A stretch of 64,000 nucleotides of DNA from Branchiostoma floridae (lineage: Eukaryota > Chordata > Leptocardii > Amphioxiformes > Branchiostomatidae), in assembly GCF_000003815.2 (NCBI RefSeq), contig NC_049982.1, forward strand, positions 19,843,920 through 19,907,919. Direction: 5' to 3'. The notes under the pieces were generated by a model. The model made no database searches. It was given only the letters and a program-made list of their open reading frames with translations, and had not been told where the DNA came from. Position 1 is the first letter of the stretch; every line of letters begins with the position of its first letter. A program made the position numbers and the translations under genes. Positions 50,901-52,972 of the stretch are shown here, piece after piece.

Positions 50901-52972
50901 TCACACCTACATCATCATCATCATCATCGGTCGACATGCTACCTACAATATATAACAAACACTGCAAACAACTTTTCTTGCTTGGTCAAACAACTATATT
51001 CCTGCATTTCTAAAGTTTTATTTAGACATTGTTTTTGACTTGTTCCTTTTTATTTTTCCTGCCAGTCTGGATCCAAGGTTGCAGGATATGAGGCCAAAAA
51101 TAGTGTAACTGGAGACTTGTATGATAGAAGGTTGAATGGCCTGGATCAGACATTGTTGCCACACTCCCCTGGGTCCAAAGTCCCACAGGATCCAGAAGAC
51201 AGAAAAATGCACAGACAGATTTAGCAAGAAATCCCCCCAAAAGACTCTACATCTTTGACACATGTATGACACCTTTGATTTTCTATTACCATTGTCATAG
51301 TACCCAATGTTAAGGTGTTTCTCTTACCTGCAAACACGTGGACATTGTCGTCCAGCACGGTGGTCATCTGCAGCTCCTGTATGCTGCTGCACCGCCCGTG
51401 GGGCAGCAGCACCACTATGTCCACCCACTTCAGCCCTCGCACAGCCTCGATGGCTGCACTGCCAGTGTCACCAGAGGTCCCTGCAAACAGACATCATCAC
51501 TCTCTATAAATAATTTTGAGGTTGTTACTTTAATGCCTATAATATTGAACAAGACAATTGATGCTCCTTCAATACAAAAGAGTAAATCAATGAAATTGTA
51601 AATAACACACCTTTTTTCTGCACAATGGACACTTTTATGAGTTAGTGACAAAGCAATTTCCCTGAATAACTATCTGCAATTTAGACTGATTTATTTCTTA
51701 TAAAATATCCGCACAAGACAACTGTGAAAATATCATAGCGGTAGCTCTGTTTGTAGACTGTCATGCACAAGTAATGACTGCATGTGGGTGCATAGATGAC
51801 AGCAACAAATTACATAAGTTCTGTGCCTTGAAAAGCAGCAGCTTATTTTAGACAGAGTTGAAGAATGAGCTGTCCTTAAGGTTTACCTTACCAACAACAA
51901 TGGTGACATGCTTCTTCCTCTTCTCCAAGAAGTACTCCAAGAACTGTCCCACGCAGGACAAAGCCAGGTCCTTGAAAGCAAGTGTTGCCCCATGCCACAG
52001 CTCTAAGACATTCAGGCCCTTCTTAAGTCTGGCAACGTTTACCACATCTGGGTGCCTGAACTTGGAGAAGGCCCTGTCTATCAGGTCTGAAGGAGGGATA
52101 TTATATTTGATTAGGATGAAATTTATTTTTACCCATATATTTTGCAGGCCATAATCATATCCTCTATTTACATTTCCATCTCTGCTTTATAAAGTTCAGA
52201 CTTTAAGAACATGTTCTGAGGTATGACATACATGTACTAACCATGCAGATCCTTTCTTGGTATTTCTGTGTCATCCACAAAGAGGGGAATGATCTCTTTG
52301 CAAAGGTCCACATAAGACAAGTCAGCCCAAGTCTGCAATGTCTTTTGAGGTATCTGAAAGAATGGAATATGTTCCAATTCATTTGTCATTACATTGCTTG
52401 TGATTCATACTCTGAGCTTCTTTGAGCATGCTCTATACTAGTATATAGCTACATGTACCATACATGAAGAATGCAGTGACCAGCAATGAAGTGTGCCATA
52501 GTGTGAGGTCCTACTGAAAAAGTCAGTGGAGTTCTTTTAAACAGGATTGTTTGCTGGCATTTGCAGCACACCTTGCATAACTTTTTTTTTCAATGCTGAC
52601 TAACAAACAAAAAATTATGATCCATTGTTCATATCAGGAATACCTTACAGTTCTTTCCTGGGGTACAGCATCAGGGAACACATCACAGTTCTAACTTGGG
52701 GTACAGCATCAGGGTTCTTACCTGGGGTACAGCATCAGGGAACACCTTACAGTTCTTACCTGGGGTACAGCATCAGGGAACACCTTACAGTTCTAACCTG
52801 GGGTACAGCATCAGGGTTCTTTCCTGGGGTACAGTATCAGGGAACATATTACAGTTCTTACCTGGGGGACACTATCAGGAAACAGCAGTCCTCCATCACT
52901 GCAGTACCCTGAGAACAAAGCTTGCTCAAATGTCTGCCCTTTGACCCCACCTCTGGTGCTGCTGTATCTCAT
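47963..52972 (-). CDS. THNSL2-like: Threonine synthase-like 2 (complete, ten exons)
   Basis: Minus-strand exons: 52972-52862 (ATG), 52353-52242, 52086-51892, 51480-51328, 50868-50717, 50298-50256, 49940-49792, 49151-49026, 48623-48487 and 48167-47963 (TAA). They join in frame to 460 residues (vertebrate THNSL2 is about 480). This is a fold-type II PLP enzyme family; in mammals THNSL2 acts as a phospho-lyase on O-phosphothreonine rather than a true threonine synthase. Landmarks: MRYSSTRGG then [37 protein letters not shown] with the PLP lysine in [18 protein letters not shown] phosphate-binding loop, [13 protein letters not shown] [37 protein letters not shown], and [13 protein letters not shown] near the C-terminus. 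Exon 6 has two possible acceptors: 50314 with a longer exon 5 (to about 50703) would add ten residues. Introns 1 and 5 contain minisatellites that copy the adjoining splice site. Confidence 0.9.
50315..50594 (-). repeat. 33/34-bp minisatellite carrying repeated 3' splice sites
   Basis: About eight units. On the gene's strand each reads TGTTTATCACTGTAGTG then TTTTATCAGATGTGCAG. The last unit abuts exon 6, so the CAG that can serve as acceptor is itself the end of the repeat. Units differ by single substitutions and small indels (one has AGACAAG, one CAGTCACTG). Confidence 0.9.
52641..52861 (-). repeat. 38/26-bp minisatellite carrying repeated 5' splice sites
   Basis: On the gene's strand, units read TTCCCTGATGCTGTACCCCAG-like text followed by GTAAGAACTGTAAGGTG. 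They begin at the exon 1 donor (CCCCCAG|GTAAGAAC) and recur six more times into intron 1. Donor positions, reading away from the exon, are near 52860, 52822 (GA), 52796 (GTTAGA), 52758 (GTAAGA), 52720 (GTAAGA), 52694 (GTTAGA) and 52656 (GA). Short 26-bp units lack 12 nt of the spacer. Confidence 0.9.

Follow-up and report, generated by a model that had tools for sequence, protein, structure and literature searches.

Minisatellites at two splice junctions of a THNSL2-like gene of Branchiostoma floridae, probably near-neutral mirages

The window analysed here is a stretch of 64,000 nt of the B. floridae genome (contig NC_049982.1, positions 19,843,920 to 19,907,919), and all positions given below without a locus handle are counted from its first base. 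On its minus strand lies a THNSL2-like gene, two splice junctions of which are embedded in tandem repeats (Table 1). In the predicted product, Pfam detects Thr_synth_N (1.6e-23), which starts at residue 2, PALP (2e-12) and a THR4_C match of 26.9 bits, slightly below the cut-off of 27. The top relative of solved structure is 1kl7 (7.1e-93), the threonine synthase of yeast. Tail to tail with this gene, at 42400-46600 on the plus strand, lie exons that, by eye, resemble those of a matrix metalloproteinase with a hemopexin region.

Table 1. Features of the THNSL2-like gene and its junction arrays. Positions are those of the window; a slash marks the exon-intron boundary.
Feature	Position	Strand	Basis
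THNSL2-like gene, 10 coding exons, 468 aa	47963..52972	-	Frame, splice consensus, homology
Coding exon 1, ending CAG/GTAAGA, phase 0	52862..52972	-	Gene model; Thr_synth_N
Coding exon 2	52242..52353	-	Gene model
Coding exon 6, acceptor TTTTATCAG/ATG	50256..50322	-	Frame; linker length compared with 1kl7
Donor mirage, minisatellite of exon 1 end and 5' splice site	52633..52884	-	TRF score 406; unit parse
Decoy donor u2, CAG/GTTAGA, +64 nt	52796..52797	-	U1 pairing -7.1
Decoy donor u3, CAG/GTAAGA, +102 nt, in frame, TGA at codon 54	52758..52759	-	U1 pairing -11.0
Decoy donor u4, CAG/GTAAGA, +140 nt	52720..52721	-	U1 pairing -11.0
Acceptor mirage, 34-bp minisatellite with TTTTATCAG/ATGTGCAG	50315..50592	-	TRF score 396; ends 8 nt inside exon 6

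The donor array of coding exon 1

The first-pass annotation had placed at 52641-52863 a minisatellite whose unit comprises the last bases of coding exon 1 together with the donor, followed by six further copies in the intron. The unit parse bears out this composition, with exon end and donor repeated in register, and also the location, but the array extends a few bases further on either side. It contains seven units, the exon's own (u0) and six decoys (u1 to u6), and then a stub. The authentic donor GT is found at 52861-52860, and the equivalent positions of u1 to u6 are 52823, 52797, 52759, 52721, 52695 and 52657, which corresponds to offsets of +38, +64, +102, +140, +166 and +204 from the exon end inwards. 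From u0 to u6, the donor nine-mers are CAGGTAAGA, CAGGAAAGA, CAGGTTAGA, CAGGTAAGA, CAGGTAAGA, CAAGTTAGA and CAGGAAAGA. The decoys read GA, GT, GT, GT, GT and GA at the donor dinucleotide, in agreement with the earlier count of four GT copies, two of them with a perfect GTAAGA (52759 and 52721); the core is GTTAGA in two other decoys and GAAAGA in the remaining two.

TRF assigns the array a period of 102 bp (2.5 copies, 90% matches) and additionally reports rows of period 38, 26 and 64 within it. Its score of 406 compares with a best score of 53 among 500 dinucleotide shuffles of 52201-53300. The 102-bp period is a higher-order repeat, which had been overlooked in the first-pass annotation, as had the second junction array described below: units of 38 (L) and 26 bp (S) follow each other in the order L-S-L (38+26+38), and the first two blocks are identical at 91 of 102 positions. 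The repetition of this block suggests that growth of the array took two steps or more. Of the seven units, u0 has diverged furthest, differing from the others at a mean of 3.67 of 26 positions compared with 1.5-2.83 for the other units, and no such divergence is seen for the unit at the inner edge, u6 (2.0 of 26). A search of the 513-Mb genome, covering one assembly and skipping very common words, returned the array itself as its one match.

We estimated donor strength by a simple score (kcal/mol) for pairing with the 5' end of U1. The authentic donor, u3 and u4 reach the same value of -11.0, followed by u2, by the two GA copies (-6.3) and by u5 (-1.4), while the nine authentic donors of the gene range from -5.7 to -11.6 when one additional base is included in the score. 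When 39 GTs of intron 1 were scored, counting the authentic one, u0, u2, u3 and u4 took the four top ranks. The array presents a ladder of donors, as described earlier, and three of them, the authentic site and two decoys, pair equally well with U1, so that competition between these three is possible in principle. It had also been noted that use of the fourth site would add 102 nt in frame but with a TGA, and we arrive at the same result: splicing at u2 or any later unit is predicted to lead to a TGA at codon 54, which is common to all four GT decoys, while use of u1 would shift the frame and result in a stop at codon 89. A premature stop with exon junctions downstream as a rule leads to nonsense-mediated decay, and as eight further junctions follow this stop, transcripts from the decoy donors would be candidates for decay.

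Four columns of the unit core vary between the intronic copies u1 to u6, and three of them are donor positions (-1, +2 and +3), which could be read as selection against the decoys; as the unit tail varies too and few independent events are involved, we discounted this as evidence.

The acceptor array of coding exon 6

The second array consists of 7.9 copies of its 34-bp unit and covers the acceptor of coding exon 6. The in-frame acceptor at 50322 is taken as the authentic one; the next AG, 8 nt further on, breaks the frame, and with the chosen site the linker is one residue shorter than in 1kl7. Intron 5 contains 26 AGs upstream of this acceptor, 24 of which would lead to an early stop, and the other two (+33 and +78) keep the frame and would add 11 or 26 residues. 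Four decoys retain an intact TTTTATYAG. Three of these, at 50457, 50389 and 50355, are preceded by an AG-free stretch of 9 nt, below the range of 17-73 nt found at the nine authentic acceptors of the gene, whereas the stretch of the fourth, at 50423, is 24 nt long and thus similar to that of the authentic exon 6 acceptor (23 nt). Most acceptor decoys, including the in-frame one at +33, therefore look handicapped.

The two ladders could together constitute a working switch, in which the authentic donor faces competition from the decoys at 52759 and 52721, whose use sends transcripts to decay, repeat number or the level of a splicing factor tunes THNSL2 output, and the acceptor ladder adds 11 or 26 amino acids in frame. 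Equal duplicated donors can compete, as known from classical splicing work, and the equal U1 pairing of three donors, the stop shared by the four GT decoys and the two frame-keeping AGs would all fit such a function. On the other side stand the short AG-free stretch (9 nt) of the +33 acceptor, the still stronger donor ladder of an Adh3-like gene of the same genome (see below) and the regular splicing reported for other mirage genes in passages of PMC3087553 and PMC3902484, and we consider a switch unlikely. The suggestion of the first-pass annotation that the array could generate allele-dependent isoforms or nonsense-mediated control is not supported.

Junction register, chance and assembly

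A plainer explanation would be that ordinary minisatellites overlap the junctions by chance, or that some of the copies are an assembly artefact. When the two arrays were placed at random in this exon-dense gene 100,000 times, both overlapped some junction in 52% of cases, a frequency compatible with coincidence, whereas both straddled a junction with 1-25 exonic nt in only 0.7%, a criterion set after the arrays had been seen. According to the gene model, the exonic portions are 23 nt for the donor array and 8 nt for the acceptor array. We also took 20 samples of 10 kb from fixed positions of the genome (200,000 bases, of which 19,610 are N) and counted arrays with a period of at least 10 and a TRF score of at least 80; in this small sample, none of 30 arrays contained two or more donor cores, and the reversed control likewise gave 0 of 30. 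A scan for nearby repeats at the 18 internal junctions yielded scores of 51 and 44 at the two arrays and 16-22 at the other 16. A score of 51 is reached by 1% of the background positions that lie outside these arrays, since further repeats occur in the region taken as background (28-57 kb). Better evidence against chance than the placement tests is provided by the register of the repeated unit, that is exon end plus donor, with the junction, and by the occurrence of such arrays in other genes, and the presence of a second junction array in the same gene points in the same direction. An artefact would be in line with the single assembly, in which the donor array has a single match, and with one mirage that, according to a passage of PMC3087553, was aberrantly assembled in the genome draft used there; the differences between the copies, however, argue against a simple assembly duplication. 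We therefore regard chance or artefact as very unlikely.

None of the other larger arrays of the window lies visibly at a coding junction when inspected by eye. The window also holds two facing pairs of 22-bp arrays (GACACTTCGGCCCCAAG...), at 57480-57613/58085-58212 and at 60369-60449/60707-60787, the flanks of which look, again by eye, like inverted copies; perhaps these represent a pair of DNA transposons or MITEs with a minisatellite in their ends.

Relation to known amphioxus mirages

Arrays of this kind have already been described in amphioxus as mirages, so that the THNSL2 case is a further example and not a new kind. The Adh3 mirages (Canestro et al. 2002, PMC117041, as cited in PMC3087553 and PMC3902484) are reported to be minisatellites with units of 10-72 bp, which likewise span boundaries, affect donors and acceptors and occur several times per gene; gene and sequence differ, and the 102-bp higher-order repeat is a feature of THNSL2. 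Passages of PMC3087553 report mirages in B. floridae and B. lanceolatum, with length and somatic instability, and the globin cases BflGb6 and BflGb9 resemble THNSL2 in their tandem copies over an intron-exon boundary and their frequently retained AG/GT, but have units of 150-160 bp that include more exon. As in THNSL2, two junction arrays (60 and 108 bp) are present in one gene, PGBD5, according to parts of PMC3902484, in which troponin C is cited as another mirage gene; the PGBD5 units are longer and one is predicted as an exon. The passages on amphioxus huntingtin (PMC2206037) mention tandem repeats, none of them at junctions. Literature term searches, judged by title or the opening of the abstract, returned no paper on a THNSL2 mirage, and papers pairing threonine synthase-like 2 with Branchiostoma were judged in the same way. 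The THNSL2-like gene extends the short list of published mirage genes by one in which a donor and an acceptor are both repeated, and its two decoys of equal U1 pairing, at 102 and 140 nt downstream of the authentic donor, make it a natural counterpart of the duplicated-splice-site experiment.

Junction arrays are also found at other loci of the same genome. We looked at five ADH stretches, which were chosen with Adh3 in mind and not as a random gene sample and hold 8 of the 23 ADH_N matches, and one of them, L034, carries such arrays. This locus, which we name Adh3-like from its protein sequence, has four arrays at 1028-2377 that adjoin or cover the splice acceptor and donor of two neighbouring exons. 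Its donor array consists of ten 33-bp units with GT in all nine decoys and an identical CAG/GTGAGA in eight of them, a stronger ladder with better kept decoys than that of THNSL2 (two of six identical). The TRF rows at 661-746 and 2848-2901 of L034 are not tied to a junction. Among nine globin places, again no random gene sample, one (L032) has an array over a junction, with 4.2 copies of 158 bp running from the intron through the acceptor into the exon, and it resembles the BflGb6 case as given in passages of PMC3087553. Two further arrays near globin matches are not tied to a junction, namely a 17-bp array of 16.8 copies in L027 (1202-1487, 132 nt off the match) and one in L030 (1575-1619, 84 nt off).

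We propose, with a probability of about 0.8, that the two arrays of the THNSL2-like gene are near-neutral and presumably length-unstable mirages that were seeded at exon boundaries, and that the authentic outer site is mostly used. Each array would have arisen when a short segment across the exon-intron boundary was duplicated in tandem, with later growth by slippage or unequal exchange and, in the case of the donor array, also through duplication of a block of three units. The effect would be small or absent if the spliceosome mostly takes the authentic outer site, and transcripts from any of the four GT decoys, with their stop at codon 54, would be candidates for decay. Both arrays are minisatellite-like tandem repeats with boundary-spanning units, as in published mirages; GT is kept in four of the six donor decoys, and passages of PMC3087553 likewise describe AG/GT as kept in many but not all repeats and the unit at the cluster boundary, which escapes homogenisation, as the most diverged, as observed for u0. 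This reading is further suggested by the second junction array, by the Adh3-like and globin arrays elsewhere in the genome, by the loss of GT in two donor decoys and the GTTAGA core in two more, and by the short AG-free stretches of three of the four intact acceptor decoys. The two decoy donors that match the authentic one in U1 pairing and the acceptor decoy at 50423 argue against it. For other genes, passages of PMC3087553 state that regular splicing seems undisturbed, judging from Adh3 data and from RT-PCR of globin genes, and the passages on mirage genes in PMC3902484 point the same way. A more far-reaching version, in which a mutational process of amphioxus preferentially amplifies splice junctions and nucleates arrays at donors and acceptors, and in which the THNSL2 donor ladder gates decay and the acceptor ladder adds 11 or 26 amino acids in frame, the output being set by copy number, both inherited and somatic, appears improbable to us.

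The arrays might finally be a remnant of intron gain or of a boundary shift, or supply the material for such changes, a model proposed for the globin mirages in a passage of PMC3087553, in which one of the copies might turn into the exon end or into a new exon. An in-frame decoy donor indeed exists at +102, but this copy brings a stop, and we consider such a role highly improbable. Birth of intron 1 from the array was rejected, as exon 2 (from 52353) contains no repeat copy by eye and no repeat lies near the intron 1 acceptor, the 40-mer of which scores 17, the background median. In a THNSL1-like paralogue (L022), the N-terminal domain lies in one open frame, which says little on intron gain because this paralogue is presumably old. 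At 4-864 of L022, repeated open frames indicate a tandem array, which would lie roughly 500 nt upstream of the first exon visible there.
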